DNA from: Oscillospiraceae bacterium
GTDB lineage: Bacteria > Bacillota > Clostridia > Oscillospirales > Oscillospiraceae
DNA: 37,462 bases
Reading direction: 5' to 3'
NCBI GenBank assembly: GCA_017436785.1
Contig: JAFSCK010000052.1
Location: 1 to 37,462 of the forward strand
Numbering within the stretch: position 1 is the stretch's first letter; each line of letters begins with the position of its first letter. The translations under genes and the position numbers were made by a program. Below the pieces are notes generated by a model that ran no database searches, was not told the origin of the DNA, and was given only the letters and a program-made list of their open reading frames with translations. Shown here in pieces: positions 982 through 30,033 of the stretch.

Positions 982-1016
982 TCGGATCCGTAACACAGGT
1001 TAAAACTTAACGCAGA

Positions 1017-1050
1017 GGCCATGCTCCCTCGTGGAGCATGGCCTTTCTTA
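1017..1050 (+). terminator. Intercistronic hairpin after the binding-protein gene
   Basis: A perfect 11-bp stem (GGCCATGCTCC, 1017-1027, with 1033-1043) closes a 5-base loop and is followed by TTTCTT. It sits between the binding-protein stop and the first permease. Such hairpins commonly let the binding protein be made in excess of the membrane components by partial termination and 3'-end protection. Confidence 0.75.
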
Positions 1051-1085
1051 AATTGAAGCCTCTAGAAAAGGAGGAATGGTGCCCC

Positions 1086-2090: not shown

Positions 2091-2105
2091 TCGGAGGGAT
2101 CGCAC

Positions 2106-3353: not shown

Positions 3354-3363
3354 GGAGGACGCT

Positions 3364-5215: not shown

Positions 5216-5240
5216 CACTTTTTGACAAGGAGCGACGATC

Positions 5241-7511: not shown

Positions 7512-7524
7512 TACCCATCCAGTC

Positions 7525-7554
7525 CGGAGGGCCCTCCGGGGCCCTCCGTTTGTT
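7525..7554 (+). terminator. Intercistronic hairpin between GH3 and GH94 genes
   Basis: A 10-bp GC-rich stem (CGGAGGGCCC, 7525-7534, with 7539-7548) with a four-base loop and a short TTTGTT tail. Both flanking genes point the same way and the next gene has no visible promoter, so partial termination or RNA processing is more likely than a full stop. Confidence 0.65.
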
Positions 7555-7581
7555 ACCAACCCCCTTTCCGGAGGATAGAAT

Positions 7582-10002: not shown

Positions 10003-11339
10003 GTCATTTCCCGAAGGATTTTGTATGGGGCGTCGCCTGTGCTTCCTATCAGTGCGAGGGTGCCTGGAACGAGGACGGAAAGGGACCCAATATCTGGGAC
10101 GATTTCTGCCATGATGTCACCTATGAATATGTAAAAAACCGGGATACCGGCGATGTGGCCTGCGACAGCTACCACCGGTTCCGGGAGGATGTGGCCCTGA
10201 TGAAGGCCCACAACATTCAGGTCTACCGCTTTTCCATCAGCTGGGCCAGAGTCATTCCCGATGGCGAAGGGGAAGTCAATGAAAAGGGCCTGCAGTTTTA
10301 TGACGATCTGGTGGAGGAGCTGCTGGCCAATGGCATCGAGCCTTGGATCACCCTCTACCACTGGGATCTTCCCAGCGCCCTGCAGAACAAGGGCGGCTGG
10401 CTGAACCGGGATCTGGTGGAGATCTTTGGCCGCTATGCCGCCATCATCGCAGAGCGCTTCAAGGGCCGCGTGCAGCGCTTTATGACCTTGAATGAGCCCC
10501 AGTGCATCGCCCAGTGCGGCTATCAGAACGGCAACCACGCCCCGGGACTGAAGCTGGGAGAGGAAAAAGTCGCGCTGGTTTATCACAATCTGTGTCTGGC
10601 CCACAGCGAAGCCCAGCGGCGCATCAAGGCCATCTGCGGCGACGATGTGAAGGTGGGCGCGGTGCCCTGCGGCACCCTTGCCTATCCGGAAACAGATACC
10701 CCCGCAGGACGGGAAGCCGCCTATCATGCCAGCTTCGATCTGCGGCAGGGCTGGAACTTCAACATTTTCCTAGACAGCCTGATCCTGCACCGCTATGATG
10801 ATTCCGCTTCGGAAGGCTACAAGCGCTTTGCTGCCACCATCGACCCTGCCGACTGGGAGCTGATGGAAACACCGGATTTCTTAGGCCTGAACATCTATCA
10901 GGGATTCATGGTGGATGAGCAGGGCCGGGAGATCAAGCGGTATCCCGGCTTCCCCCTGACGGCCTGCAAGTGGGGCATCACCCCGGAGGTCATGCGTTAC
11001 GGACCCCAGCATATCTACCGCCGCTACGGCCTGCCTATGTACATCACGGAAAACGGCCTGAGCTGCAACGATGTGGTCTATCTGGACGGTAAGGTCCATG
11101 ACGCAAAACGCATCGATTTCCTGAACCGCTACCTGCTGGAGCTTGGAAAGGGCATCGCCGACGGTGCGCCGGTTCTGGGTTATCTGCAGTGGAGTTTTCT
11201 GGATAATTTTGAGTGGAGCGAAGGCTACAATGAGCGCTTCGGCCTGATCTATGTGGATTACCGCACCTGCCAGCGGATCCCGAAGGATTCCGCTGCTTGG
11301 TACGCAAAGGTCATCGAGACCAACGGCGAGAGCCTATAG
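9999..11339 (+). CDS. Beta-glucosidase, glycoside hydrolase family 1
   Basis: 446 residues. The start ATG 9999 overlaps the preceding stop (ATGA), and GGAGG at 9987-9991 lies inside the end of the GH94 gene, so translation is probably coupled. The family signature is complete: N-terminal FPKDFVWGVACASYQCEGA, acid/base E166 in TLNEP, and nucleophile E351 in ITENG. It has no signal peptide. It hydrolyses beta-glucosides with retention of configuration. There is no PTS component nearby and none of the phosphate-binding features were recognisable, so plain beta-glucosidase is preferred over 6-phospho-beta-glucosidase. It is the last gene of the operon. Confidence 0.93.
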   Translation: MSHFPKDFVWGVACASYQCEGAWNEDGKGPNIWDDFCHDVTYEYVKNRDTGDVACDSYHRFREDVALMKAHNIQVYRFSISWARVIPDGEGEVNEKGLQFYDDLVEELLANGIEPWITLYHWDLPSALQNKGGWLNRDLVEIFGRYAAIIAERFKGRVQRFMTLNEPQCIAQCGYQNGNHAPGLKLGEEKVALVYHNLCLAHSEAQRRIKAICGDDVKVGAVPCGTLAYPETDTPAGREAAYHASFDLRQGWNFNIFLDSLILHRYDDSASEGYKRFAATIDPADWELMETPDFLGLNIYQGFMVDEQGREIKRYPGFPLTACKWGITPEVMRYGPQHIYRRYGLPMYITENGLSCNDVVYLDGKVHDAKRIDFLNRYLLELGKGIADGAPVLGYLQWSFLDNFEWSEGYNERFGLIYVDYRTCQRIPKDSAAWYAKVIETNGESL

Positions 11340-11547: not shown

Positions 11548-12246
11548 TCAGGTGCCTGTGTGGATGGCGTGATAGACCTGATGGATGGCCGCTCTGTTTC
11601 TGACGAATTTTTCTACTACCTTGGCATCAAAGTGGATGTCCCGGTTCTTTTGGATATAGGAAAAGGCGGTATCAAAATCCCAGGATTGCTTATAGGGCCG
11701 CTCGGCGGTCAGAGCATCAAATACATCGGCCACCGCCACAATCTTGGCCGGCAGGGAGATCTCCTCCCTCCGCAGCCCCAGATAGCCGCTGCCGTCTATC
11801 CGCTCATGGTGCTGCAGCGCCACCTCGGCAGCCAGCTGAAACACCGGGCCATCCCATTGGGACAGTATCTGGCTGCCCAGCGGACTGTGGAAGCGGATCT
11901 GTGCAAAGGCTTCCTCATTCAGCCTGCCGGGATCAAAGAGGATGGATTCCGGGATCTCCAGCTTACCGATATCATGAAGCAGCGCCGCGCAGCTGATCCG
12001 GTGGGTCTGCTCCGGGTCGTAGCCCATAATGCTGCAAATGACCCGGGTATATTCCGCCACATGCTGCATGTGACCGTTGGCCGTGTTGCATTTGCGGTCG
12101 ATGCGGTGGATCAGCGCTTCCTCAAAGCCCAAACCTGCCATGACCCCGAAGAAGTCATCAAAATGCAGCTCCTGCTTTTTACCTGCGCTTTTCCTGCGAA
12201 TGGGAAATACGGAAGGATGGGATGAGAAAAAGGCCTTTTTACACAC
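11548..12246 (-). CDS. HD-GYP domain protein, probable c-di-GMP phosphodiesterase
   Basis: 232 residues. The start is GTG at 12246-12244, eight bases after GAGGGG; a TTG at 12252 is in frame but lies only two bases after the GAGGGG, too close to be used. The HD metal pair is H91-D92 in LLHDIGK, and the diagnostic HHExxDGxGY is present at 146-155, followed by ADVFDALTAERPYK. The residue after GY is leucine (L156) instead of the usual proline. No membrane segment or sensor domain is visible, so it is a minimal cytoplasmic enzyme expected to hydrolyse c-di-GMP. Upstream are a repeat copy and then a c-di-GMP-I riboswitch on the same strand, which makes feedback by the substrate likely. Activity rests on the intact motifs only. 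Confidence 0.9.
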   Translation of the reverse strand: MCKKAFFSSHPSVFPIRRKSAGKKQELHFDDFFGVMAGLGFEEALIHRIDRKCNTANGHMQHVAEYTRVICSIMGYDPEQTHRISCAALLHDIGKLEIPESILFDPGRLNEEAFAQIRFHSPLGSQILSQWDGPVFQLAAEVALQHHERIDGSGYLGLRREEISLPAKIVAVADVFDALTAERPYKQSWDFDTAFSYIQKNRDIHFDAKVVEKFVRNRAAIHQVYHAIHTGT

Positions 12247-12260
12247 AGTCAATTCCCCTC

Positions 12261-12428: not shown

Positions 12429-12475
12429 AAAAAAGCTGCAAACACACGCGGAATGCTTCCGCGTATCTTTGCAGC
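12429..12475 (-). terminator. Riboswitch expression-platform terminator, HD-GYP leader
   Basis: On the minus strand a 17-bp stem (GCTGCAAAGATACGCGG with its partner, one mismatch and one G-U pair) with a 7-base loop, followed by six T, G, six T. It starts within the last bases of the c-di-GMP aptamer, so the two structures compete for a few bases. Confidence 0.88.
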
Positions 12476-12543
12476 CGGTCAATCATACGAAGGTTTCGTT
12501 TAGACACCTTGGCTTTGCGTCGCAGCCTTTCGGCTGGTTTGCC
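12474..12543 (-). promoter_or_regulatory. c-di-GMP-I (GEMM) riboswitch upstream of the HD-GYP gene
   Basis: Read on the minus strand, the 70-nt aptamer has the class I hallmarks in order: GGCAAACC, a P2-type stem closed by a GAAA tetraloop (CAGCC GAAA GGCTG), GACGCAAAGCC, then the tetraloop-receptor strands CTAAACGAA and TTCGTATGA around a short loop, and a closing ACCGGC that can pair with GCCAAGGT. A terminator follows at once. The downstream gene is a c-di-GMP phosphodiesterase. Class I ligand specificity is established for this fold. Whether ligand turns the gene on or off cannot be decided by eye, because the aptamer and terminator share only about two bases. Confidence 0.92.
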
Positions 12544-12558
12544 ATTTTACTTGGTTAC

Positions 12559-12587
12559 ATTATACAAGGCCAGCCCGTTTTTGTCAA
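12559..12587 (-). promoter_or_regulatory. Consensus promoter for riboswitch and HD-GYP gene
   Basis: On the minus strand TTGACA (12587-12582), 17 bases, TATAAT (12564-12559): a perfect sigma-A consensus. Transcription would start near 12552, just before the aptamer. Confidence 0.88.
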
Positions 12588-12594
12588 GATTATC

Positions 12595-12623
12595 TTGCCA
12601 AAACGATTTTTAGCCTTTATAAT
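12595..12623 (+). promoter_or_regulatory. Promoter for the EAL/GGDEF gene
   Basis: TTGCCA (12595-12600), 17 bases, TATAAT (12618-12623). It is back to back with the riboswitch promoter, the two -35 boxes being only 7 bases apart, and about 60 bases before the EAL/GGDEF start. Confidence 0.75.
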
Positions 12624-12681
12624 AACATCATTATATGTGGTATTATGCCCTTTTGTGCAAAAAGAAAAGGAGGACACGCCA

Positions 12682-15600
12682 ATGGCTGTCAGTGATTCAC
12701 GGGACCCGCTGCTGGAGCAATGGCTGGAGGAGCTGGCCTTTCTCAGCAATGAAGCGGACGCCGTTCTATATTTATGGGGTCCTTCTCAGGATGCGCTGTA
12801 TCTGACCGGCCCGGTGGAGGAGGTTTTCCATCTTTCCGTCCCCGCTAGGACCTTCTGCTCCAAGGCGATGTTCGAGCAGCTTCTTGGTCCGGATGCCAGT
12901 CAGGCCTTGCATCAGGATGCCGCAGCCCTGCTGTCCGGACAAACGGCGATCTGCCGCCGGGAGCTTCTGCTGACCACCCCGGAGGGAAGCACCCTATCCC
13001 TCCATGCGGTCAGCAAGCGCCAGCACCATGACTCCCCGTGGGTCCTGACCCGCCTTTCCGGTGCCCCGGATTTTTTCACCCCGGCGGAGGAGGCAGAGGC
13101 ACCCCCCCTTGTGAAGGCCATGCGGGAAAGCGTGACCCGGAACTGTGAGGGCTTCTTCCTCCTGTTCCAGCCCCAGATCGAGTGTGAAAACTATGAGCTC
13201 CATGGTCTGGAGGCACTGCTGCGCTTTCGCTCTGCAGAGCTGGGCATCGTGCCTCCCAATGAATTTATTCCACTGCTGGAATCCACCGGACTGATCGTTC
13301 CCGTGGGGCATTGGGTACTGAAAACTGCCATAGAGCACTGTGCCCGCTGGCGGGCCCATCTGCCGGAGCTGCATATCAGCGTCAATGTGTCCTACCTGCA
13401 ATTCCGTCAGCCGGGCTTCGGAGCTCAGGTATTGGAGCTGCTGGAAAAAAACGGCCTGCCCGGCTCCGCGCTGACGCTGGAGGTCACAGAAAGCATGCAG
13501 CTGCAGGACCACCGGTATTTCAACCGGGTATTCTCCCGGCTCCAAAAGCAGGGCGTTCAGATCTCCATCGATGATTTCGGCACCGGCTATTCCAGCCTCA
13601 GCTATCTGAAGCTGTTGTCCATCAACGAGGTCAAGATCGACCGCTGCTTCATCTCCCGGATCCAGCACAGTGCCTACAACTTCCGTCTGGTCAGCAATAT
13701 CATCGAGCTGGCCCGCAGTGCCCAGATCCAAGTCTGCTGCGAGGGCTTGGAAACAGAGGAGGAATTTGCGGTGCTCCACGAGCTCCATCCCCATCTGATT
13801 CAAGGCTACTTATTCGCTAAGCCCTATGATGCGGAGCAGTTTGTGCGGCGCTTTATCGACAGCACCAACGAGGAATTTGCCCAGCGTCAGCAGCGCCAGG
13901 ACTACTACCGCAGCCTTGCCCACCGGGATAATTCCCACACCCTGAAGATCGAGGAGCAGGAGCGGCTCAGTACCATCGTCGATGGCATGGAGGAGCTGGT
14001 ATACGTCCGGGATCTGGAAAATTATGACCTGCTGTATATGAATGCCGTAGGCCGGGAAATGACGGGCATCTATGACTATAAGGGACGCAAATGCTATCAG
14101 GTCCTAGTCGACCGGAAGACCCCCTGCGATACCTGTACTGCTGCCTGTCTGAATCTGCAGACCTATCAGGTCCAGGAGCGGTGGAACGACTACCTTCAGC
14201 GCCATTTCATGCTGAAAGAGAAACTGATCTACTGGCGCGGAAAGCTGGCAGGTCTGGCTGTGGGTATTGACCTGACGGAAAAAGAAATCACCAGCCAGCG
14301 CTTGCAGGAGCAGCTGGAGTTTAAGCAGAATATCGAAGACTGCACCAAAATGCTGCTGGAGGAGACTGACCTGCAAAAAGCCATCAGCGGTCTGCTGCGG
14401 ACCATCGGCGAATTTTACGATGCCGACCGGGCTTATCTGTTCGAGCTGCAGGATAACCGTCAATTCTGGGACAACACCTACGAATGGTGCGCCAGCGGAG
14501 TCAAACCCGAGATCGACTTTTTGCAGGATGTGCCCATTTCCACTACCAAACGGTGGATGGAGCTGTTCCGGATGGGTGAATCCATCATCATCGATGACAT
14601 TGAAGACATCAAGGAAGCTTCCCCTGAGGAATACGAGACCCTTGCCGTGCAGAACATCACCCACCTGATCGTGTCCCCGATCTGGCACGATCAGCGGGTC
14701 ATCAGCTTTATCGGTGTAGACAACCCCGGAAAACATCTCCACGATGTCGGCCATGTACAGACCATCTCCCTGTTCCTTGCGGACCGCATCCTGAAGGACC
14801 GGACCAAGGACCGGCTGAAGGAGCTTCTGAACCTACATTACAGCGATATCCTGAAGACCACCCAGCTGGGCCTGTGGGTCATCCGTCTGAGCAAGGACGG
14901 CAGCCGGGCGGAAATGTACGCCGACCAGACCATGCGCAGTGTCCTTGGCATTCGGGAGCCTCTGACCCCGGAGAAATGCTATCACCACTGGTACAGCCGA
15001 ATCAAGGACGGTTATTTTCATTATGTCAACTACTCCGTCCAGAATATGATCAACACCGGCCACACGGTGGAGCTGAGCTATACATGGAACCACCCGGAAA
15101 AGGGCGAAGTCACCGTCCGTTGTCTGGGCACCCGGGTGGAGGATATGGGGGATATGATCTGTCTGGAGGGCTATCACCGGGAGATCAATCAGGTGGACCG
15201 ACCCCATTTCCTTCCTGACGAAAAGAGCATTATCTTTGAATACAACAAGGACAAGCGCTCCATATATTTCCATAACAGCCGTGTGCCTCTGGCAGGCACC
15301 GGGGAGAAGGAAGAGGACTTCCCCAACTGCTGGCTCCGGCAGGGCATCGTCCATCCCCATTTCCTCCGGCGCTTTGCCGCTATTTTCTCCGATATCAGCA
15401 GCTGTCCAGAGTTGGAGGGCGAGGAGCTTCTGCTGAAAACCGCAGAAGGTACCTATGAATGGTTTAAAATGAAGACTCACTATCTGGGCGACAGCCAGCA
15501 GGATGCCAAAACCATGGTAGTCATTCTGGACCCGGCCAAGCAGGAGCGGGCCATGGAGCTGGAATTTTTACGGCAGAAGGATTTCTACCGGGCCATCTTG

Positions 15601-16473
15601 TCGGAAAGCATCGCCTACGCAGAGATCGATATGGAAAGCCACGAGATTTTGGCTGCCGGCGGCCTGTGGGGACCCTGCCAGAAGCAGGGGCAGGACTACC
15701 TGAACAATCTGCTGCAATGCGCAGAACTGACCGCCTACCCCGAGGACGCCGCCGCCTATTGCCGCTTCCTGTCGGAGGAAACCCTGAGCAGGGTCATGGC
15801 CGCCGGGAAGGACCGGGAAAAGATCCAGCTGCGGTGCTTTGTAGCCGGACAGCTGCGGTGGGTGGAGCTGACAGGCCATGTGTTCCGGGATCAGCTGACG
15901 GAGAATGTTTATGCCCTGCTGTATGTTCAGGACATCGATGCCCGAAAGCAACGGGAGCTGGAACAGGAAAAGGCCGCCACCCGAGATCCCCTTACGCAGT
16001 TATTCAACCGCAGTGCGTTCCAGAAGGAAGTTATGGAGCACATTGCCCGGTCCCGGTCGGACACTGCCGGCGCACTGGTGATCTTGGATCTGGACAATTT
16101 CAAGCCCATCAACGATACCTACGGCCACGCCGAGGGCGACCGGGTGCTGCAGCAGCTGGCAGACGTATTGATGACCACCTTCCGCCGGAAGGACCTGATC
16201 GGCCGTTTTGGCGGCGATGAGTTCCTGATCTTCCTGAAGGACCTGTCCGACAAGGATGTCATCGACCGCCGCATGCAGGAGCTGCGCCGAAACCTGCTGA
16301 CCGCAAACCACCATGGCTGCACCTGCAGCGCAGGCATCACCTTCGTTCGCCGGAAGGATTTCCACTACGAAACCTATCTGAAAGAGGCCGATCACGCCCT
16401 ATACCAGAGCAAAAAGCAAGGTAAGAACACCTACAGCTATGCAAGCCCCATGGGCTGTCCGTCCGGAAAATGA
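12682..16473 (+). CDS. Multi-sensor c-di-GMP turnover protein, EAL-PAS-GAF-PAS-GGDEF
   Basis: 1263 residues from ATG 12682, preceded by AAAGGAGG; the frame is open further upstream but that part overlaps the divergent riboswitch. Order: a PAS-like N-terminus (about 20-120), EAL domain (about 145-395), a PAS domain with cysteines C482, C485 and C489, a GAF domain (about 550-700), two or three PAS-like segments (about 715-1080), and GGDEF (about 1095-1250). EAL residues are intact: E177-A178-L179, DDFGTG at 297-302, K318 and E354. The GGDEF motif is canonical (1177-1181) with an inhibitory I-site RRKD at 1168-1171. Both activities look possible. No membrane helices are seen, so signals are probably cytoplasmic. 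Placing EAL before GGDEF reverses the common order. Confidence 0.92.
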   Translation: MAVSDSRDPLLEQWLEELAFLSNEADAVLYLWGPSQDALYLTGPVEEVFHLSVPARTFCSKAMFEQLLGPDASQALHQDAAALLSGQTAICRRELLLTTPEGSTLSLHAVSKRQHHDSPWVLTRLSGAPDFFTPAEEAEAPPLVKAMRESVTRNCEGFFLLFQPQIECENYELHGLEALLRFRSAELGIVPPNEFIPLLESTGLIVPVGHWVLKTAIEHCARWRAHLPELHISVNVSYLQFRQPGFGAQVLELLEKNGLPGSALTLEVTESMQLQDHRYFNRVFSRLQKQGVQISIDDFGTGYSSLSYLKLLSINEVKIDRCFISRIQHSAYNFRLVSNIIELARSAQIQVCCEGLETEEEFAVLHELHPHLIQGYLFAKPYDAEQFVRRFIDSTNEEFAQRQQRQDYYRSLAHRDNSHTLKIEEQERLSTIVDGMEELVYVRDLENYDLLYMNAVGREMTGIYDYKGRKCYQVLVDRKTPCDTCTAACLNLQTYQVQERWNDYLQRHFMLKEKLIYWRGKLAGLAVGIDLTEKEITSQRLQEQLEFKQNIEDCTKMLLEETDLQKAISGLLRTIGEFYDADRAYLFELQDNRQFWDNTYEWCASGVKPEIDFLQDVPISTTKRWMELFRMGESIIIDDIEDIKEASPEEYETLAVQNITHLIVSPIWHDQRVISFIGVDNPGKHLHDVGHVQTISLFLADRILKDRTKDRLKELLNLHYSDILKTTQLGLWVIRLSKDGSRAEMYADQTMRSVLGIREPLTPEKCYHHWYSRIKDGYFHYVNYSVQNMINTGHTVELSYTWNHPEKGEVTVRCLGTRVEDMGDMICLEGYHREINQVDRPHFLPDEKSIIFEYNKDKRSIYFHNSRVPLAGTGEKEEDFPNCWLRQGIVHPHFLRRFAAIFSDISSCPELEGEELLLKTAEGTYEWFKMKTHYLGDSQQDAKTMVVILDPAKQERAMELEFLRQKDFYRAILSESIAYAEIDMESHEILAAGGLWGPCQKQGQDYLNNLLQCAELTAYPEDAAAYCRFLSEETLSRVMAAGKDREKIQLRCFVAGQLRWVELTGHVFRDQLTENVYALLYVQDIDARKQRELEQEKAATRDPLTQLFNRSAFQKEVMEHIARSRSDTAGALVILDLDNFKPINDTYGHAEGDRVLQQLADVLMTTFRRKDLIGRFGGDEFLIFLKDLSDKDVIDRRMQELRRNLLTANHHGCTCSAGITFVRRKDFHYETYLKEADHALYQSKKQGKNTYSYASPMGCPSGK

Positions 16474-19742: not shown

Positions 19743-20930
19743 TTAGGCTTTCTTCATCTGTTCGGCAATGTCCGCATCTACGATCTCTTCGCCGGTTTTG
19801 TCCGCCAGCTGCTCCCGGGAGCGCTGGGACAGGCCGTCGTTGACGATGGCATGGAGGTCGCAGGTGCTGCAGCGGTCCAGCGCTTCCTTGGTGACTTTGC
19901 CATCCCGGTAGTCCCGGACGATCTTATTCTCGTACATGGAATACTTCTTCTTTTTAAAGAACCGCAGGAACTTATGCCGGATGACCCACAAAGCGGGCAC
20001 CCAGATGTACTTGTGCATGGCGGGAGAAACAGAGCCGATCATCCAGCAGTTGCGGTCGCAGTGACGGACCTTGGCCCGGACCGTCTCGGCTTCCTTGCTG
20101 TTCCATAGCTCCTCCCAGCTCTGCCGGTTCAGATTGCCCATGACCTCCTTCTCCTTGGTGCCGTTGCAGGGCATCACATCGCCGTAGGGGTCGATGAAGA
20201 AGGTATCGAAGCTCATGTCGCAGGGCAGCAGCCGCTTCTGAGAATAGATATAGTTGATGAGGCCGTGGTTGAAGTAGGCCCGGAACCACTTCTTGGGGCT
20301 GTTGGAACTCAGCAGCTCGTTGATGAGGTTCTCAAATTCCTGCGCAACCATAGGACGGTCGTGGATGATGTTCTTGGCCTCCACAAAGTAGAAGGAGTTA
20401 TGCAGGGAGGCGGTCGCAAATTCCATGCCCATCTCATCGGAGATCTTATACAGGGGCACCAGATCCTTGCAGTTGCAGTCCTGCACGGTCATACCGAAAC
20501 CCACGTCCTTCATACCCATGGCCACCAGCTTCTGCAGGGTGGTGTAGCCCCGGTTGTAGCCGTCCTCCAGACCGCGGATGGCATTGTTGGTGGCTTCCAG
20601 ACCCTCGATGGAGATACGGATGCCAATATCCGGAAATTCCTTGCACAGGTCCACGATCCGGTCGGTGAAGAAGCCGTTGGTAGAGATGACGATGCGGTCA
20701 CTTTTCTTTTTCAGCTCCCGGACGATCTCCTTCAGGTCTTCCCGAATGAAGGGCTCGCCGCCGGTGATATTGGTAAAATACATGGGCGGCAGCTTTCGGA
20801 TGGTTTCCAGAGAGATCTCCTCCTCCGGGCGGGAGGGGGCCTTATAGCGGTTACACATGTTGCACCGGGCATTGCAGCGGTAGGTGACGATCACCGTACC
20901 ATTCAGCTTTTTTTCATTTTTCTGATTCAT
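19743..20930 (-). CDS. Radical SAM protein with SPASM-like C-terminal cysteines
   Basis: 395 residues; GAGGAG lies seven bases before ATG 20930. The radical SAM CxxxCxxC is CNARCNMC near residue 19, with the SAM-binding GGEP (NITGGEPFIRED) and ISTNG following. The C-terminal half has the cysteine pattern of SPASM-type proteins (LPCDMSF, VMPCNG, RHCDRNCW) and an additional CSTC near the end, so one or two auxiliary Fe-S clusters are expected. A short hydrophobic stretch (KYIWVPALWVIRHKFLRFF) separates the two cysteine groups. It is the last gene of the polysaccharide operon, sixteen bases after a glycosyltransferase. Its substrate is unknown; modification of the glycan or its carrier is an inference from position, and no peptide substrate gene is visible. 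Confidence 0.88.
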   Translation of the reverse strand: MNQKNEKKLNGTVIVTYRCNARCNMCNRYKAPSRPEEEISLETIRKLPPMYFTNITGGEPFIREDLKEIVRELKKKSDRIVISTNGFFTDRIVDLCKEFPDIGIRISIEGLEATNNAIRGLEDGYNRGYTTLQKLVAMGMKDVGFGMTVQDCNCKDLVPLYKISDEMGMEFATASLHNSFYFVEAKNIIHDRPMVAQEFENLINELLSSNSPKKWFRAYFNHGLINYIYSQKRLLPCDMSFDTFFIDPYGDVMPCNGTKEKEVMGNLNRQSWEELWNSKEAETVRAKVRHCDRNCWMIGSVSPAMHKYIWVPALWVIRHKFLRFFKKKKYSMYENKIVRDYRDGKVTKEALDRCSTCDLHAIVNDGLSQRSREQLADKTGEEIVDADIAEQMKKA

Positions 20931-20945: not shown

Positions 20946-22154
20946 TCACATGGTTCCTTCATAGATCTTCATGAGCTTTTCGCAGTATTCCTCCAGCGTG
21001 TCAAACTGGATCTGCTGGCAGTTATCTGCATAGCGCCGGGTCACTTCGGGATTTTCCCAGAGATACTGAATTTTTTCCCGCAGGGCCTGTTCGTCGGCAC
21101 TGGCAAACAGCTCTCCGGTCCTGCCGGGCTGGATCAGCTCCGGAATGCCGCCGATGTAGGCGCCCAGCACCGGTGTTCCATACATCTGGCTCTCCATGAC
21201 GGAGAAGGGGCAGTTTTCGTACCATTCCGAGGGGTAGATGCTGAAACGGGCCTCCCGGATCAGGGTTTCCAGCGCTTCGCCGGACTGGAAGCCTACGTTT
21301 TGAATATTGGGTACGGAAGTCAATTCCTCTGCCAGAGGACCGGTGCCGGCAAAGACAAAGGAGATCTGGGGCAAGGAACGGCAGACCTTCAGCAGCGTGC
21401 CGATGCCCTTTTCCTCAGAGAAGCGGCCAAAGTAGAGGACATAGTCCTTCTTCTCCGTCTTCTTCCACGGCACCCGGTTGATGAAGTTATGCAGGGCGAT
21501 GGTTTTGCCTGCAAACAGGGGGTTGGTATCCATTTTGGACTTCATAAAGTGGGAGCAGCAGATGATGGCATCGATGTGCCGGTAGACCTTGTTAGCCTTC
21601 CAGAAATAGGCCTCCGTCATGCCGATGAGGCTCTTTGCCTTAGAGCCGTGGATGCAGCTGCCCTTGAGGCAGTTTGCAAATTTGCCGCCCACACATTTTT
21701 CGCAATTTTCGTGGGTGTTGGGATTGCTCATCATGTGATTGGGGCATACCAGTTGGTAATCGTGGGCCGTGAAAACGATGCGGCACCGCGTTCCCACTTC
21801 CCTTTCCCACTTGCGGACCTCCAGAATCACAGAGGGGGTCAGCTGATAGTTGAAATTATTCAAATGCACCACATCAGGGCCAAAATCCTCCAGCACCTGA
21901 CGGATCTTTTTTCTTGCTTCGGTGGAGTAGATGGTCTTCAGAGGATAGGTCAGCTTGGAGAGCTTGGACCCACCGTGAAAATCCATGTTGGAGGTATAGG
22001 CCTCCACCCGGTTGCCCACACAGCGCTTGGGGTGCTCCATGCCGAAATACTGGACCTGATGGCCCTGTTCCTTCAGATAGGCACCCAGCCGGAAAATGTA
22101 GGTTTCCGAACCGCCGTTGGGGTGCAGAAACTTGTTTACCATTAAAATCTTCAT
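20946..22154 (-). CDS. Glycosyltransferase family 4
   Basis: 402 residues. ATG 22154 overlaps the previous stop as ATGA, and GGGAG precedes it, so it is preferred over an in-frame GTG at 22166. The GT-B fold is clear: an N-terminal acceptor domain with the glycine loop PNGGSETY, and a C-terminal donor domain with FGRFSEEKGI and the nucleotide-sugar segment ECP-type region YENCPFSVMESQMYGTPVLG. A cysteine-rich stretch (CPNHM, CEKC, NCLKGSC) at about 135-170 is a feature of a subgroup of these enzymes and may bind metal. It adds a sugar to the lipid-linked repeat unit at the inner face of the membrane. Donor and linkage cannot be predicted. Confidence 0.9.
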   Translation of the reverse strand: MKILMVNKFLHPNGGSETYIFRLGAYLKEQGHQVQYFGMEHPKRCVGNRVEAYTSNMDFHGGSKLSKLTYPLKTIYSTEARKKIRQVLEDFGPDVVHLNNFNYQLTPSVILEVRKWEREVGTRCRIVFTAHDYQLVCPNHMMSNPNTHENCEKCVGGKFANCLKGSCIHGSKAKSLIGMTEAYFWKANKVYRHIDAIICCSHFMKSKMDTNPLFAGKTIALHNFINRVPWKKTEKKDYVLYFGRFSEEKGIGTLLKVCRSLPQISFVFAGTGPLAEELTSVPNIQNVGFQSGEALETLIREARFSIYPSEWYENCPFSVMESQMYGTPVLGAYIGGIPELIQPGRTGELFASADEQALREKIQYLWENPEVTRRYADNCQQIQFDTLEEYCEKLMKIYEGTM

Positions 22155-23302
22155 ACGCGGCTGCACTCCCTGTTATCATATAGGTCCAGTGTCCGGTCTA
22201 CGATGGTTTCCCATTGGAATCTGTCGCAAATGTAGTCCGCAGCCCCGGCCTTGTATTGGGCTACGGCTTCAGGGCTGTCGCACAAGCCCTGCAAGGTATC
22301 CCGCAGCGCCTGTACATTGCCTGCGGGGAAGGAAATGGCCTTGTCCTCCACCGCCTCGGTGCATTCGCTGATGTCGGAGGTCAGGCAGCAATTTCCGTAG
22401 CTCATAGCCTCCAGCAGGCTCAAGGGCATCCCCTCCACATCAGAGGGAAGGGTGTAGATATAGGCATTGCTGTACAGCTCTTCCAGCAGCTGTCCTTGCA
22501 CGAAGCCGGTAAAGAGGATCCGGTCATCACCTTCGGCCATGGCCCGCAGCTCCTGGAAGAACGCGTCGGTGTCGCTGGAGCCGCCGGCGATCACCAGTTT
22601 TTTATCGGTCTTCACCTGCCGGAAGGCAGAAACCAGATACCGCAGGCCCTTTTCCGGCACGATCCGGCCAAGGAAAAGGATGTATTCGTCCTTTTTCAGA
22701 CCATATTTTTCCGTAATCAGGGAGGCCTGTGCGATCTGCGGTCTGGTGACACCGTTGGGGATGAAGACGGTTTCCCGGCCATAGGTGCTGCGGAAGTATT
22801 CCTGAACGCCTTTGCTCAGGACGATGATCTCGTCCGCCCAGCGGACGGCAACTTTTTCTCCGAAGAGGATGTAGGCCCGGGCAAATTTGCCCCATTTGGG
22901 CCGCTGATGGTCCAGACCGTGGACAGTGGCAATGCACCGCTTGCCGAATAGCTTCGGCAGCCACAGCATGGCGCAGGGACCCTCGGCATGGAAATGTACC
23001 GTGTCGAAGCCGCCGAACAGGGTCCGGAAAGCACCGGTGACAGAGGCGGTCATGGCTTCGACGCCCCGGTAATTCAGGGCAAAGACCGTTTCCAGCTTTA
23101 CGCCCTTAAATTCCTTTCTGGGGCCGGTATCAAATTCCTTACCGCTGACATGGTGTCCCTTTCGGTTGAGGCAGGTCACTTGATGGCCCCGGGCGGCCAT
23201 CCGGGTGCTGAGCTCCTCTACCACGATCTCGACTCCGCCCTCCCGGGAGGGGATCCGCTTGTGGCCCAGCATGACAATGTTCCGCTTTTTCTCCGCATTC
23301 AC
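22151..23302 (-). CDS. Glycosyltransferase family 4 with DUF1972-type N-terminus
   Basis: 383 residues. The start is GTG 23302, with GAAGGA six bases upstream; no in-frame ATG lies nearby. The N-terminus MLGHKRIPSREGGVEIVVEE matches the DUF1972-type acceptor domain found in rhamnosyl- and galactosyltransferases of capsule loci. The donor domain contains LGRIVPEKGL and SDVEGMPLSLLEAMSYG. It is cytoplasmic or peripheral to the membrane. The stop overlaps the next start by four bases, giving translational coupling with the second GT4. It acts with the neighbouring transferases in building the repeat unit. Confidence 0.9.
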   Translation of the reverse strand: MNAEKKRNIVMLGHKRIPSREGGVEIVVEELSTRMAARGHQVTCLNRKGHHVSGKEFDTGPRKEFKGVKLETVFALNYRGVEAMTASVTGAFRTLFGGFDTVHFHAEGPCAMLWLPKLFGKRCIATVHGLDHQRPKWGKFARAYILFGEKVAVRWADEIIVLSKGVQEYFRSTYGRETVFIPNGVTRPQIAQASLITEKYGLKKDEYILFLGRIVPEKGLRYLVSAFRQVKTDKKLVIAGGSSDTDAFFQELRAMAEGDDRILFTGFVQGQLLEELYSNAYIYTLPSDVEGMPLSLLEAMSYGNCCLTSDISECTEAVEDKAISFPAGNVQALRDTLQGLCDSPEAVAQYKAGAADYICDRFQWETIVDRTLDLYDNRECSRV

Positions 23303-23337: not shown

Positions 23338-24390
23338 TTAAAAACGGATGCCCAGCTTACATTGCAGGCGGTAGACCTGCGCGTACCAGATGATCTTCCA
23401 GACGTTCTTCTGCTCATAGGCCTTAAAGACCTTCCGGTAGAAGCCGGTGATCTCCATTTTACTTGTGTCGATACCGGCGGTGATCTTTTTGGCATCCTCA
23501 TTTTGGAAGCAGAACTCCAGATTTTTCCGGCTTCTGCCAGCGAAAATGTCGTTGAGCTTGCCCACATATTTCAGTGAGCCGGTCATGAGAATGACATACA
23601 GCCGATGGTACATCAGCTGCACCACCATATCCTCCCGGCCCTTTTTTCTCAGGATCTCGGTGAGGTAATCGTACATCCAGACGTATTTTTTGAAGTAGGT
23701 GGGGCTGATCTCAGAGATCATGGACGCAGGGCGCCAGCGGTAGTGGTAGAAGCAGCGCTCCTGATACAGCTCTACGCTCTTGGCATCGATGATGCAGGGA
23801 TAGGTGCAGGCCATGTCCTCGCCCAGAGAGATCTTTTCGTCAATGGGCTCCAGATTGGTCATCAACAGCTCCCGCTTGAACCACTTGTTCCAAACCACAG
23901 GGAAAATGCCGGGCTTGTACAGCTCGCCGGAGTAGATCATCTTCTGGCGCAGCTGTTCTAAGTCCTCGCCCTCGTAATAGCCGGGAGCTTGGACCGTAAA
24001 GTAGCGGGTAACATCGCCCTTCCGGTCATAGAAGAAGTCGGTGATGATGACATCTGCCCCCCGGGCATCCGCCAGTGCCTTCATGGTGGCGTACATCTCC
24101 TCATCGATCCAGTCATCGCTGTCAACGAAGGTGATGTACTGGCCCTGCGCGATCCGGGCACCTGCCTTTCGGGCGCTGACCAGACCGCCGTTGGGTTTAT
24201 GGATCACACGAATGCGGTCATCCTTTGCTGCGTAGGTATCACAAATCTCCGGACACTTGTCCGGAGATCCGTCATCCACCAAAATCAGCTCCAAATCCCG
24301 GAAGGTCTGGGCAAGGATACTTTCAATACACTGCGCAAGATAAGGCTCTACCTTATAAATGGGAACGACTACGCTTAAATAGGGCTTCAT
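23338..24390 (-). CDS. Glycosyltransferase family 2
   Basis: 350 residues. ATG 24390 overlaps the polymerase stop (ATGA). The GT-A fold is shown by LSVVVPIYKVEPYL at the N-terminus, ILVDDGSPD, and the metal-binding DxD in FVDSDDW near residue 93. The family is that of WcaA/EpsJ-like transferases that add hexoses to polyprenyl-linked intermediates. The C-terminal third is helical and basic and lacks membrane helices. It is the first of three transferases in the operon. Confidence 0.92.
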   Translation of the reverse strand: MKPYLSVVVPIYKVEPYLAQCIESILAQTFRDLELILVDDGSPDKCPEICDTYAAKDDRIRVIHKPNGGLVSARKAGARIAQGQYITFVDSDDWIDEEMYATMKALADARGADVIITDFFYDRKGDVTRYFTVQAPGYYEGEDLEQLRQKMIYSGELYKPGIFPVVWNKWFKRELLMTNLEPIDEKISLGEDMACTYPCIIDAKSVELYQERCFYHYRWRPASMISEISPTYFKKYVWMYDYLTEILRKKGREDMVVQLMYHRLYVILMTGSLKYVGKLNDIFAGRSRKNLEFCFQNEDAKKITAGIDTSKMEITGFYRKVFKAYEQKNVWKIIWYAQVYRLQCKLGIRF

Positions 24391-25646
24391 AATTCTGCCT
24401 CCCGAATCGTTTCTTGGTCAATAAATTCTGCTGCGCAGGAAAGGATCACAGTGAACAGCGCGGTATTCAGGTAGAAGTAGCTGTAGGTATTGTCCGTTAA
24501 GTAAGTAAAGTAGCAGTACAGCAGGGCGCTGAAGGTCATCAAGGCACACTGCGCGCCCCGCTTCCGGCAGAAATGCCGGACCCGGAAGAAGAAATTGCTG
24601 AACAGCCACACCAGATATCCCCAGAAGCCCAGCTCCACATACAGTTCCAGGAAAATGTTGTGCAGGCGGCGGATCTGGGTCAGCTTCTGAATTTCCTCAG
24701 AAGCAAGCCACTCCACGGTATAACCGAGGCCGAAGCCTTTAAACAGGGGGGAGAAGCTGTAGTATTCGTCGATCAGGTGGATCAGGGTGATACGGCCCAT
24801 GGTGTCGATGTTATAGCGCTGGGCCAGATATTCATATACGCCGGTCTTAATAGCCAGGATGTAGAGCAGGGCGAAGCCGATCAGTCCCAGCGATAGGAAT
24901 TGCAGCAGCCGCTTTCTGCTGTCCTCTTTGAAGAACCGGCACAGCAGTACCACCACCAGTGCCACGGCGATGCCTGCCAGCGCAATACGCTTCAGGCCCA
25001 CGGCGAAGAAGAAGCAGGCCGCCAGCAGATACCAGCCCCGGTGGGGCACCGGCCGGTTCTTGATGAGGTAATACAGCAGATACAAGCCAATGGCAAAGGT
25101 CAGGTCATTGACCTCCACGGCTACCATGGTGCCGCCGGATACCATACCAAAGCTGCGGACCAGCGTCCACAGGTCCTTCAGGAAGACCCCGATACCATGG
25201 ACCAGAATGTGCCTGTTGATCAGGATCAGCAGATTGGCAGCGATCATGGCACCAAACTGCAGTCCCACGGCTTTTCTGCCGAAGACCAGCACCACACACA
25301 GCGACAGCATCAGCGAAAGCAGCTGGTACAGCACATCGGACAGGCCGGTGCTGATGACATCGGAGGAGACCCGGTGGAAGACCCACAGCACCATGGATAC
25401 CAGCAGGGTCAGCAAGGCAGGCACGCTCAGAGTCAGGGCGTCCTTGCCCAGCTGTCCCAGCATTCCCACGTTGGGTCTTGCCAGAAATCCGAAGACGCAC
25501 AGGAAGAGGATCCCCAGTGCAAGGGCATATTTGGTCATCAGGTTGAAGCTGCCCAGAGGGATCACCTCTTCGGACAGGTAGAACATTGCGGTGGAAAGTG
25601 CAAAGACGAGAAGCATCAGCACTTTATTCTCTTTTCTTACTTCCAT
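24387..25646 (-). CDS. Wzy-like polysaccharide polymerase, O-antigen ligase-type membrane protein
   Basis: 419 residues. ATG 25646 is chosen because GAGAGG lies seven bases before it; the frame extends to an upstream TTG without a ribosome-binding site. About ten to eleven hydrophobic segments run through the protein, with a larger outside loop of roughly 70 residues at about 275-345 that contains RITLIHLIDEYYSFSPLFKGFGLGYT and RRLHNIFLELYVELGFWG. The latter matches the HN-x-xLE/Y-x-ELG signature of Wzy_C/O-antigen ligase proteins. It would join repeat units at the outer face of the membrane. Position next to two Wzz-like proteins supports polymerase over ligase. Confidence 0.85.
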   Translation of the reverse strand: MEVRKENKVLMLLVFALSTAMFYLSEEVIPLGSFNLMTKYALALGILFLCVFGFLARPNVGMLGQLGKDALTLSVPALLTLLVSMVLWVFHRVSSDVISTGLSDVLYQLLSLMLSLCVVLVFGRKAVGLQFGAMIAANLLILINRHILVHGIGVFLKDLWTLVRSFGMVSGGTMVAVEVNDLTFAIGLYLLYYLIKNRPVPHRGWYLLAACFFFAVGLKRIALAGIAVALVVVLLCRFFKEDSRKRLLQFLSLGLIGFALLYILAIKTGVYEYLAQRYNIDTMGRITLIHLIDEYYSFSPLFKGFGLGYTVEWLASEEIQKLTQIRRLHNIFLELYVELGFWGYLVWLFSNFFFRVRHFCRKRGAQCALMTFSALLYCYFTYLTDNTYSYFYLNTALFTVILSCAAEFIDQETIREAEL

Positions 25647-25689
25647 GCTGACACCTCTCTTTCCTTTGCATGGCAATTATAATAGAAGA

Positions 25690-27516
25690 TCATGCCTTGG
25701 TTCCGGCATTCTTGGCCTGATTCAGCCGGGTCATGGCTGCGGACAGCAGCTGACGGACGAAGAAGACCTGATCTTCCTGAATGCTGCTGTAGCCGCTTTC
25801 AAACTGGATGGTATAGGGCATGTCGGCAGTGCGGCTGGCCAGCGCGATCTTCAGCTGGTTCATGGCAGCTTCCATCTGCTTGCTGTTCATGTCCTCTGCA
25901 AAGACCAGATACTGTCCGGCACCGTTGTTGCCCACGAACACGGCATCGGAGGGAACGAAGATCTGGGTCAGGACACCGGCGAAGGTGCGCATCATCTCGT
26001 CGCCGGTCTTGCGGCCGAGACGCTCATTTTCCTGACGCAGATTGGTGATCCGCAGGGCAGCGCAGGCGAAATCGCCGGTGAGCATGGCCTGCTTCTTGTT
26101 CTCGATGTAGCGGTCACACTTGGCCCGGTTGGGCAGACCGTCCACCTTGTCGGTGAAGGCGTAATAATCAATAATATCTTCCACACGGCCGAAGAAGATG
26201 GCACCAACACAGCCCACCACGCCGAAGATCAGCACGAGGAAGGCGGTATACAGTCCAACGGGCAGCCGTTCGGTAACGCCAACGCTGTTGAGGATGGCAA
26301 CATTCTCTGCGCCCAGATACTCGTTATACTCGTCGTTGGTCACATCCAGGATCTGGTACAGGCCGGTGAGCTTGGCAGCCAGTGCCTCGATCTGGGCCTT
26401 GGTGTCGGCCAGCTGCTTTTCAGTGGACACGGCGGGAGCATTTTCGTAGACGCTCAGCACATAGGTGTTGTAGGCCTGATCGATGAGATTGTCCTCGAAG
26501 CGGTTGCGGTTATAGATGTAGCTTTCCATCAGCTCATCATATTCTGTGGTCTGATCCACACCGATGCGGTAGGTGCCGTCCTGAGAGGTGTGGTAGTAGC
26601 CCTGCAGCTCATCGAGGATATACTCGTGGGTGATATTGGTGTTGTCGGAGCCGCTCATCAGAAGCACATAGGACTCGATGATCTTTAGGATGTAGTCGGT
26701 CTGCTCCTTGTTGACGGTGTTGCTGATGCTCAGAGAGTTGTTTCTGTTGTGGTACTTTGCCAGCAGCACATCCCGGTCGATGGTGATCTTCTGGCTCAGG
26801 ATCTGAGAGGCCAGCTGAGGCACTTCCACATTCCGGATAAATTCAAATTCCCGGTGCAGGTCGGAGAAGGCGTAGCCGGTAGCGTGGGAACGGAAATCAG
26901 GGGTGCTGTTGTTCTTCTTCACCAGCAGAGTCAGCACATTCTCCAGAGAAGCGTCGATAACCTCCAGCATTTCGATATAGTCGTAATTCTTGCTGTAGAT
27001 ATCATCGATGCCGTTGGTGCCGCCCTCTTCATTGACATGGTTCTGACCGTAGTAGACGGTGTAAACGTCAAGGATCTCATTGAGCACGGTACGGGCGTAT
27101 TCCTTGCCGTACTCCACACCGGTGGTGAACTCCACCAGATAGCGGACGGGATAGATCTTGTACTCGATGCCCTTTTCCAGCTGGGCTTCCTGCATCAGCA
27201 GCTCCTCATCCTCAATGAGGGGAGTGATGGTGATGGCATCGCGGATGCTGTCCATGTTGTACTCAGCGTGGCCCAGATTTGCCATGGCCTGAGAGACCAC
27301 CTGAGAGGACCGCAGCTCATCTACGTTGATGCTCTTGCCATCGGGAGCCTTGCCGTCATTGGCAGTGGGGTTGGTATATTCGATCATGGTGGAAGCGGTG
27401 TACTTCTGCATTTCCTGCTGCATGAAGCCGTAGCACAGCAGACCCATCAGCAGGGAGCAGGCAACGATAATGGCGCAATACTTTTTCAGATAGCGCATGA
27501 TCTGGAACTGTTTCAT
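25690..27516 (-). CDS. Wzz-like chain-length protein fused to a degenerate GGDEF domain
   Basis: 608 residues; AAGGTG lies seven bases before ATG 27516. Layout: membrane helix (about 14-31), a long extracytoplasmic helical domain (about 35-415) as in Wzz/capsule co-polymerases, second membrane helix (about 420-443), then a cytoplasmic domain (about 450-605) with the GGDEF-family opening DGLPNR (459-464) and the core ALRITNLRQENERLGRKTGDEMM. Where GGDEF should stand the sequence is GAGQY (532-536), and the I-site arginine is replaced (VPSD), so neither synthesis nor classical I-site binding is expected. The usual bacterial tyrosine kinase partner is absent here. A signalling or nucleotide-responsive role of the tail is inference. 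Confidence 0.85.
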   Translation of the reverse strand: MKQFQIMRYLKKYCAIIVACSLLMGLLCYGFMQQEMQKYTASTMIEYTNPTANDGKAPDGKSINVDELRSSQVVSQAMANLGHAEYNMDSIRDAITITPLIEDEELLMQEAQLEKGIEYKIYPVRYLVEFTTGVEYGKEYARTVLNEILDVYTVYYGQNHVNEEGGTNGIDDIYSKNYDYIEMLEVIDASLENVLTLLVKKNNSTPDFRSHATGYAFSDLHREFEFIRNVEVPQLASQILSQKITIDRDVLLAKYHNRNNSLSISNTVNKEQTDYILKIIESYVLLMSGSDNTNITHEYILDELQGYYHTSQDGTYRIGVDQTTEYDELMESYIYNRNRFEDNLIDQAYNTYVLSVYENAPAVSTEKQLADTKAQIEALAAKLTGLYQILDVTNDEYNEYLGAENVAILNSVGVTERLPVGLYTAFLVLIFGVVGCVGAIFFGRVEDIIDYYAFTDKVDGLPNRAKCDRYIENKKQAMLTGDFACAALRITNLRQENERLGRKTGDEMMRTFAGVLTQIFVPSDAVFVGNNGAGQYLVFAEDMNSKQMEAAMNQLKIALASRTADMPYTIQFESGYSSIQEDQVFFVRQLLSAAMTRLNQAKNAGTKA

Positions 27517-27533: not shown

Positions 27534-28922
27534 TCATACTACAGATTTTGTGCGTTCCTTCTTGCCGGGTCTGGCTTCCATGTGGCTTGCCGCCACATAG
27601 CTGGCCATTGCTGCGGCAAACAGAAGGGAAAGGATCGCACCGTCCTTCACAGCCATCAGGCTCTTTGCGGAAGGCTCCTTGATGGAGGTGCTGACATAGC
27701 CATTGCGGGTCGTATCGATATAGTCATCGATCAGGTCCTTTGTCTGCTGGGCCAGAGACAGCAGCTCGACCTTCAGCGCTTCGATCATCTGATCGGCAGC
27801 AGCCTTGGCAGCCCTTGCCTCAATGGCCTCCACCTGCGCGCTGGCATACTTGTTGTTCTGGATGGTCTCCTGCAGCTCGGTAGCCTTTTCCAGTGCATGG
27901 TCTGCTTCGTTGGCGAAGTAGTCAACACCGATCTTGGTCCGGGACATGTAGTACTGCAGCTGGGAATCGGTGCTGGGCACCAGCACGATGCGGGCCATCT
28001 GCTCGTCGTACAGGTCGATGGCCTCCAACCGGACGTTGTAGGCAGCCATTTCCTTCTGATACTCCTGATCCAGCAGCATGTTGCTGTAGGCGATCCGCAT
28101 GGTGTAGGGAGCATCGTTCTTAGACAGGCCGTTTTCCAGTGCGAAGGCATGGTAGCGCTCCAGCTCCACGTTCTGGAAGTTCCTGATCTTCTCAGACAGG
28201 GAGGCAAAGGTCTCGCCGGTAGTCTCGCTGCGGAAGGCGGGGGCCTCCAGATTGTAAGTAGTCAGATAGTAGTTCAGGTGCTCGGCATTCATGTAGAAGT
28301 AATCTTCCATGTCCAGATAGTCGATCTGGTCGATCTCCTCCAGACTCAGATCCAGAATGGAGGTATTCTCTGCATACTCCTCCACGAAGGCTTCGGTGAA
28401 CACCTCTGCCAGCGTATTCAGCAGCACATGGCCGTCGATGCCGGTGGCCAGCAGCTTGTCGTTGCAGATCACTGTATACTCGGTGGAGATGTTCAGCTGT
28501 GTCTGGTTCACGCCCTTGGAATCAAAGACGGAGGACAGCTCCAAGCAGGAGGCCAGCTCGGCGGGGGTGATATCGAAGCCTGCCTTGGCGATGACCTTCT
28601 CCAGAATGTCCTCGGAGATCAGCTTGGATTCGTTGAAGCGGGTCTGGTTGGGGTTCAGGCCCTCGGCAGCTTCCTCATAGTTGAACTTCACGTTCAGCTT
28701 GGGCAGGCTGCTGTTCACCAGATACTGGCTGCCGCAGAACATACCGAAGAACAGTGCCGCACACACTAGGATCGCTACGGCGCGGGTCTTCAGATGCTGC
28801 AGGCCATATCTGAGCTTACCGCTCTTTTTCTTGCCATTGAGGAAGAACTTGACCGCTGCACCCAGTGCCAGCAGCACGATCAGGCCCTTCAGGACGATGT
28901 CTGCGTATTGCATAATGACCAT
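27534..28922 (-). CDS. Wzz-like chain-length/export protein
   Basis: 462 residues; GGAGAGG lies five bases before ATG 28922. Hydrophobic segments are at about 8-27, 47-68 and 425-447, enclosing an extracytoplasmic helical region with coiled-coil character (DYFANEADHALEKATELQET and following Ala/Glu/Lys-rich turns). The sizes and order resemble Wzz/YveK co-polymerases, but the extra N-terminal helix pair and a short basic tail (RPGKKERTK) without tyrosine-kinase features are unusual. It pairs with the next, GGDEF-fused Wzz-like protein, and the two may form a hetero-oligomer around the polymerase. Confidence 0.75.
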   Translation of the reverse strand: MVIMQYADIVLKGLIVLLALGAAVKFFLNGKKKSGKLRYGLQHLKTRAVAILVCAALFFGMFCGSQYLVNSSLPKLNVKFNYEEAAEGLNPNQTRFNESKLISEDILEKVIAKAGFDITPAELASCLELSSVFDSKGVNQTQLNISTEYTVICNDKLLATGIDGHVLLNTLAEVFTEAFVEEYAENTSILDLSLEEIDQIDYLDMEDYFYMNAEHLNYYLTTYNLEAPAFRSETTGETFASLSEKIRNFQNVELERYHAFALENGLSKNDAPYTMRIAYSNMLLDQEYQKEMAAYNVRLEAIDLYDEQMARIVLVPSTDSQLQYYMSRTKIGVDYFANEADHALEKATELQETIQNNKYASAQVEAIEARAAKAAADQMIEALKVELLSLAQQTKDLIDDYIDTTRNGYVSTSIKEPSAKSLMAVKDGAILSLLFAAAMASYVAASHMEARPGKKERTKSVV

Positions 28923-29907: not shown

Positions 29908-29952
29908 AAAAAAACGGCTGCAATGGTGCATTTTCATGCACGATTGCAGCCG
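29908..29952 (-). terminator. Riboswitch expression-platform terminator, polysaccharide operon
   Basis: On the minus strand a 17-bp stem starting CGGCTGCAAT with a single C-C mismatch and a GAAA loop, followed by seven T. It shares four bases with the closing strand of the aptamer and lies about 106 bases before the first gene. Confidence 0.9.
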
Positions 29953-30018
29953 GTCGGTCATGCGAACATTTCGTTTAGACACCTGAGCTTTGCGTCTTGA
30001 CCTTTCGGTCAGTTTGCC
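29949..30018 (-). promoter_or_regulatory. c-di-GMP-I (GEMM) riboswitch heading the polysaccharide operon
   Basis: The same 70-nt architecture as the first riboswitch on the minus strand: GGCAAAC, a stem with GAAA tetraloop (TGACC GAAA GGTCA), GACGCAAAGC, receptor strands CTAAACGAA and TTCGCATGA, and a closing ACCGGC. Between the two copies the stems change by compensating substitutions (CAGCC/GGCTG against TGACC/GGTCA), which supports the fold independently. It should tie expression of the eight-gene operon to cellular c-di-GMP. Confidence 0.92.
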
Positions 30019-30033
30019 AATTATTATATAACA

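Follow-up and report, generated by a model that had tools for sequence, protein, structure and literature searches.

What can a GGDEF-family domain that has lost its GGDEF motif do at the cytoplasmic end of a Wzz-like polysaccharide co-polymerase? In the known systems that pair a PCP-2 co-polymerase with a BY-kinase (Wzc; CapA/CapB and CpsC/CpsD), two membrane helices lie around an outer domain, a regulatory module stands in the cytoplasm at the C-terminus, and Wzy and glycosyltransferases adjoin, all of which is shared by the protein described here (PCP-B). In those systems, however, the module is a kinase, whereas the PCP-B family carries a GGDEF or EAL tail and comes with a second, paralogous PCP in tandem. 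According to the accessible text of PMC12004946, the kinase is believed to control the cycling of co-polymerases between oligomeric states, and pseudokinases have been proposed to replace the kinase as scaffolds. The window, that is, the whole stretch of 37,462 nucleotides that was analysed, has the following features.

11548..12252, minus strand: HD-GYP-like protein (Pfam HD_5, 4.5e-33), behind the second riboswitch
12467..12553, minus strand: second c-di-GMP-I riboswitch (68.4 bits)
12682..16473, plus strand: EAL-PAS-GAF-PAS-GGDEF protein whose GGDEF, I-site and EAL motifs are all intact; probably starts at an ATG
19735-19703: terminator-like hairpin after the radical SAM/SPASM gene
19743..20930, minus strand: radical SAM/SPASM protein (Pfam), final gene of the operon
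20946..22166, minus strand: family 4-type glycosyltransferase (Pfam)
22151..23302, minus strand: family 4-type glycosyltransferase (Pfam)
23338..24390, minus strand: family 2 glycosyltransferase (Pfam)
24387..25676, minus strand: Wzy / O-antigen ligase-like polymerase (Pfam Wzy_C, 8e-10)
25690..27516, minus strand: PCP-B (608 aa, stop included), a Wzz-like co-polymerase whose GGDEF tail is degenerate
25693..26187, minus strand: PCP-B tail (residues 444-608), GGDEF-family domain with GAGQY at the catalytic site and N497 and D506 kept
26182..27516, minus strand: PCP-B residues 1-445 with TM1 (10-28), predicted extracytoplasmic domain and TM2 (425-443)
27534..28922, minus strand: PCP-A, tail-less paralogue of PCP-B, 462 aa
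28954..29805, minus strand: calcineurin-like metallophosphoesterase (Pfam Metallophos, 7e-13), first gene of the operon
29908..29952, minus strand: hairpin and U run, read from the sequence, with its 5' arm overlapping the 3' strand of the aptamer
29942..30028, minus strand: c-di-GMP-I (GEMM-I) riboswitch aptamer ahead of the PCP operon (61.9 bits)

Operon, host contig and riboswitches

PCP-B is encoded by an uninterrupted open reading frame, the third gene of a tight minus-strand run in which the metallophosphoesterase, PCP-A, PCP-B, the Wzy-like polymerase and three glycosyltransferases are followed by the radical SAM/SPASM gene (19743-20930), which closes the exopolysaccharide operon, and by a hairpin. 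The operon had been annotated from the start as being under a c-di-GMP riboswitch, and this was borne out by the aptamer at 29942-30028. Both aptamers of the window pass the Rfam gathering score of 35 bits. Each shares part of its 3' strand with the 5' arm of a strong hairpin that leads into a U run, so that ligand binding should prevent termination and both riboswitches appear from this overlap to be ON switches. The hairpin at 29908..29952 is not among the sites listed by the terminator consensus scan.

The host assembly is 91.4% complete and 7.34% contaminated, and the counts of domains and riboswitches describe this assembly. At E <= 0.001, it holds two GGDEF matches, one EAL match and two c-di-GMP-I matches, all on the contig of the window, and the product of 12682..16473 is both the sole EAL match and the sole canonical GGDEF match. 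Whether the contig might be a contaminant was therefore considered. The contigs vary in GC content, from 0.49 to 0.585 in the 14 readable ones of 15 sampled, and the window has 0.558. The GH94 gene of the window is 84% identical to that of a genome of the same genus, so at least that part of the contig fits the genus. The outer domain of the co-polymerase was found in only 1 of 101 genomes of the genus, the window's own, and the co-polymerase is thus accessory or acquired. Next to the c-di-GMP genes, an oligopeptide-type ABC transporter and GH3, GH94 and GH1 enzymes are encoded at 121-11339, perhaps a set for the uptake of beta-glucan oligosaccharides. The listed TTG start of the EAL-GGDEF frame crosses the complement of the riboswitch (12469-12684), and the ATG at 12682 is the likelier start.

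The outer domain is Wzz-like

Hydropathy places the membrane helices of PCP-B at residues 10-28 and 425-443, and given the usual topology of co-polymerases, residues 30-420 would lie outside and residues 444-608 inside the cell. The name of Wzz-like co-polymerase that the protein had been given stands in part. The two helices and a profile comparison speak for it: when the PCP-B domain profile was aligned by hhalign with that of 14 proteins encoded beside BY-kinases, all 14 of which match Pfam Wzz, the probability was 91% (only residues 4-105 aligned; E 9e-7, one comparison), and that of an unrelated control pair was 0.2%. Pfam Wzz itself, however, matches PCP-B below threshold (residues 5-60, E 0.048, 14.4 bits against a cut-off of 25.5) and reaches E <= 0.1 in only 4 of 24 family members, the best at 0.012, so the claim is weaker than was made. 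Since the match to the kinase-partnered Wzz proteins covers residues 4-105 only, these comparisons make "Wzz-like" the right label for PCP-B and "Wzz by Pfam" the wrong one. The span between the helices is also longer, about 395 residues in PCP-B versus roughly 140-175 in the kinase-partnered proteins compared, and the sequence of the outer domain found only chance-level matches among solved structures, with no Wzz of the PDB among them. PCP-A and PCP-B are paralogues, homologous by profile at E 5e-21 (one comparison), and PCP-A reached 53% in hhalign with the same kinase-partnered profile.

The tail is a GGDEF domain that has lost its motif

Pfam GGDEF (PF00990) matches residues 453-606 of PCP-B at E 3e-11 (43.8 bits, cut-off 23.8) and was matched in all 24 family members, and the tail profile matches solved diguanylate cyclases (best E 3.9e-10). 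As described in the first-pass annotation, the DGLPNR opening is present and G532-A-G-Q-Y536 stands at the GGDEF site. For comparison, we aligned 49 distinct GGDEF tails, namely those of 27 G-numbered genomes, the window and 24 scan relatives, less three identical ones; L007, L018 and L025 (split or partial) and L011, L022 and L027 (identical to others) were left out. In none of the 49 was the GGDEF motif of an active diguanylate cyclase found, and none has Arg at the I-site position or an RxxD in the 16 residues upstream of the motif, so the reading of a GGDEF-derived tail devoid of both sites holds for all the aligned tails. The motif most often reads GNGSF (20 tails) or GAGQY (16), and its third residue is Gly in 45 tails, Asp in three and Lys in one.

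What remains of the pocket is uneven. N497, which we take to be the canonical guanine-contact Asn, with roles for it and for D506 carried over from PleD, is kept in 48 of 49 tails, and D506 in all 49. The first metal-site Asp is kept in 19 tails, and the phosphate-contact Lys/Arg positions vary. Because the former two are conserved and the latter variable, the base-recognition half of the pocket is, as judged from the alignment, kept and the metal and phosphate half decayed. Other conserved positions are specific to the tails: R444 and L590 are invariant (49/49), and R444, D447, Y451 and D468 form a near-invariant set. In seven of nine close pairs, the dN/dS of the tail is 0.056-0.255 (two pairs were saturated), and the purifying selection on the tail is close to that on the rest of PCP-B.

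The architecture recurs in gut and rumen Clostridia

A scan of genome contigs gave 27 relatives. With the window's own genome counted, a class-wide sample of 391 genomes had the outer domain in 52, and a phylum-wide sample of 398 had it in 5. Tail types were assigned by profiles among the followed-up members: those with GGDEF tails are 594-663 aa from stop to stop (one has 884), those with EAL tails 732-788 aa, and tail-less ones 449-514 aa. PCP-A adjoins PCP-B in 25 of 27 scan loci, the exceptions being L025, which starts inside PCP-B, and L018, in which PCP-B is truncated. The PCP-B architecture is thus found again in a number of gut and rumen Clostridia, and since relatives share it, a sequencing join, the artefact that might have explained the fusion, is ruled out. 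Among individual loci, L119 (11666-14317) encodes a PCP-B with some 270 low-complexity residues, rich in Lys, Ser and Asn, behind its degenerate GGDEF tail, the PCP-B frame of L007 (7980-9872) is split into two ORFs and stands outside the counts, and a T-box leader (75-275 in L018) flanks a related cluster.

Tail-bearing clusters keep company with c-di-GMP genes

A cluster was scored as positive if, within 9.75 kb of PCP-B, a separate ORF had a match to the canonical GGDEF, EAL or HD domain of the window. Such a gene was found near 18 of 27 GGDEF-tail, 10 of 13 EAL-tail and 6 of 20 tail-less clusters, that is, 28/40 with tails versus 6/20 without (p 0.005), and in none of 20 BY-kinase regions (12.8-19.5 kb) of the same genomes (p 1e-7), where the p values are guides, the genomes being related, the spans uneven and many contigs short. 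The BY-kinase regions were taken one per genome, the window's own and 19 of tail-bearing genomes, from 33 genomes with an over-cut-off match, and an adjoining Wzz was verified in 14 of the 20. The spans of L138-L150 had been cut unevenly around known riboswitches or GGDEF neighbours; G120, G002, G206 and G046 had first been noticed through a nearby GGDEF gene, and only G002 was positive in the count. G515, G714, G465 and three extra phylum-wide matches stand outside the count, and L031-L038 are represented by other loci of the same genomes. EAL proteins of the clusters' own are frequent, with intact catalytic positions in four of four aligned. In 39 of 40 tail-bearing clusters, a gene for a YaeI-like metallophosphoesterase is no more than 3 kb away from PCP-B, and the product of this gene may belong to the polymerisation machine.

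BY-kinases (TIGR01007 over cut-off) are present in 33 of 41 genomes, and none was found within 100 kb of PCP-B on the same contig in any of the 41, the contigs often being shorter than 100 kb; G293 is the only genome with one on the PCP-B contig, about 101 kb away. PCP-B accordingly has no fused or adjacent BY-kinase, the feature by which PCP-2a and PCP-2b proteins are recognised, and the tail lies at the position of the PCP-2 kinase, in agreement with the earlier view that it occupies the kinase's place.

The riboswitch is a less constant neighbour. None of the 27 scan loci reaches the Rfam c-di-GMP-I threshold within a flank of at most 8 kb, which rules out a riboswitch beside every Wzz-GGDEF gene; L027 and L028 have one 10-13 kb from the locus, and that of G603 lies downstream of PCP-B. 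Scans of at most 82 candidates per tail-bearing genome and 127 per tail-less genome, which give lower bounds and are not quite alike, found a c-di-GMP-I site anywhere in at least 16 of 40 tail-bearing and at least 14 of 21 tail-less genomes, and no more than 13 kb from PCP-B on the same contig in at least 10 of 40 and at least 3 of 21, respectively (p 0.51); of the sites themselves, at least 10 of 28 and at least 3 of 27 are linked (p 0.055). A special linkage of the riboswitch to tails is not established. Thus, where the first-pass annotation proposed a search for Wzz-GGDEF proteins next to GEMM-I riboswitches, the architecture does recur among Clostridia, with a genomic link to c-di-GMP genes, but the riboswitch is not its general neighbour.

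A sister clade carries EAL tails

In 13 genomes, the same co-polymerase has an EAL domain at the place of the tail. All 13 EAL tails retain ten residues of the pocket (Q, E, R, N, E, D, K, E, Q, P); the second E of ExxE is kept in none, the second D of DDFG in one and the first E of EGxE in three. The EAL tails are probably catalytically dead judging from these motifs, and we go no further because the kept positions presumably include metal ligands and the tails of G603, G419 and G074 (loci L141, L139 and L157) are close to canonical. In a tree of 69 outer domains made by a quick method, the GGDEF rows lie on one side of a branch with support 95 and the EAL rows on another branch with support 99, and one clade of 36 sampled rows bears tails throughout. 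Two changes of tail type suffice on this tree, which has long branches and whose root is not known, and two gains from a tail-less ancestor are its simplest reading. A Wzy-like gene, with the window's Wzy as the query, was found in all 27 GGDEF-tail clusters and in none of the 13 EAL-tail or 20 tail-less clusters, and the sister group may therefore serve another polymerase. A short HD-GYP-like gene (about 200-230 aa) stands at one end of nine of the 13 EAL-tail clusters (L138, L140, L142-L144 and L153-L156).

Proposed role of the tail and alternative readings

We propose, at a probability of about 0.5 and from sequence comparisons, that the tail takes the place of the kinase as an input without catalysis, that it probably binds a guanine nucleotide, and that it links polymerisation to c-di-GMP signalling. 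High c-di-GMP would turn the operon on through the riboswitch, and the dead GGDEF domain would stand in for the tyrosine kinase that drives the cycling of co-polymerases elsewhere. Acting post-translationally, the tail would bind a guanine nucleotide in the former substrate pocket (N497, D506), c-di-GMP being the likeliest ligand and GTP the next; binding would change the pairing of tails and hence the PCP-B/PCP-A oligomer, and the altered oligomer would change the length or amount of the polymer made by Wzy. Ligand, oligomer effect and polymer effect are predictions in this scheme. A nucleotide input tied to c-di-GMP is the most economical reading because two unrelated c-di-GMP folds stand at the same place, both with catalytic decay and kept pockets, in clusters rich in c-di-GMP genes. 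With the I-site lost, the GGDEF tail would have to bind at its old active site, which is unusual, and in sequence terms this loss argues against the usual mode of a c-di-GMP receptor. Moreover, with no I-site in any of the 49 tails and no conservation of the phosphate-contact Lys/Arg, the tail may bind nucleotides weakly or not at all.

If the tail bound no nucleotide, it could instead dock onto the GGDEF or EAL protein encoded nearby, whose cyclase or phosphodiesterase would then act locally at the polymerase. The lost I-site and the tail-specific near-invariant residues fit such a role, as do the frequency of intact EAL proteins in the same clusters, the reported ability of a GGDEF domain to be an interaction module (PMC9061725) and the scaffold role proposed for the pseudokinase EcpK (PMC12004946), but docking leaves unexplained both the high conservation of the two guanine-contact residues and the pocket-preserving EAL domain of the sister clade, and we regard it as rather unlikely. 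The kept base-contact residues are presumably also those for the substrate GTP, and the tail might thus sense GTP, as a measure of cell energy or of the guanine pool, rather than c-di-GMP. There is a precedent in the GEDEF domain of CC3396 (PMC4823724), yet the metal-site Asp is kept in just 19 of 49 tails, the phosphate contacts vary and the surroundings point to c-di-GMP, which makes GTP sensing improbable. That the tail is a functionless relic could be argued from the universal loss of the motif and the existence of tail-less members, but purifying selection close to that on the rest of the protein, the invariant residues and the clade of 36 rows that all bear tails make it very improbable. 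Equally hard to credit is an unusual remaining catalysis: three tails read GSDQF and 19 have Asp at the first metal position, but the two acidic motif residues never occur together in the 49 tails, and 45 have Gly at the third position.

Relation to known systems

Taking the GGDEF and EAL tails together, we tentatively suggest, at somewhat less than even odds, a further class of Wzz-type co-polymerases, in which the tyrosine kinase would have given way to c-di-GMP receptor domains, recruited once as a degenerate GGDEF and once as a degenerate EAL domain, and one messenger would control both the expression (riboswitch) and the polymerisation (tail) of a given exopolysaccharide. The EAL domain of FimX serves as a receptor, and a use of this kind may be shared by the sister clade. 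The EAL domains of LapD (PMC4823724) and FimX (PMC3527489) resemble the sister-clade tails but are not fused to a co-polymerase. The co-polymerases with EcpK/EpsV and HfsB/HfsA also work independently of phosphorylation with a dead enzyme module, which in their case is a kinase on a separate protein of Gram-negative bacteria (PMC12004946). In Alg44, a c-di-GMP receptor domain is likewise placed on a co-polymerase, but the domain is PilZ and the machine is synthase-dependent alginate production, not a Wzz-type PCP (PMC8461298). PelD and BcsE regulate exopolysaccharide production by a degenerate GGDEF domain, with an intact RxxD I-site that binds c-di-GMP and is missing from PCP-B tails, and with other machinery (PMC8461298). 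In CC3396, too, a dead GGDEF domain serves as an allosteric input for a nucleotide, but its motif is far less altered and it controls an EAL domain in the same protein (PMC4823724).

Direct action of c-di-GMP on exopolysaccharide machines is described for PilZ domains (BcsA, Alg44), I-site GGDEF domains (PelD, BcsE) and PgaCD (PMC8461298, PMC12220298). In their accessible portions, a 2025 review of capsule chain length mentions c-di-GMP twice, both times for synthase systems (PMC12220298), and the review PMC8461298 treats cellulose, alginate, Pel and PNAG, with the word Wzx absent. No description of a Wzz-GGDEF or Wzz-EAL fusion was found in the literature naming both GGDEF and Wzz, including the accessible text of PMC6851124, in a search of largely open-access papers. 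If our reading is true, the family would supply direct c-di-GMP control of Wzy-dependent polymerisation in gut and rumen Clostridia, and the same genomes would hold two parallel systems, one with BY-kinases and no c-di-GMP genes around them, the other of tail-type clusters accompanied by such genes. The tails are also a natural test of what a GGDEF pocket can do after the loss of catalysis and of the I-site.
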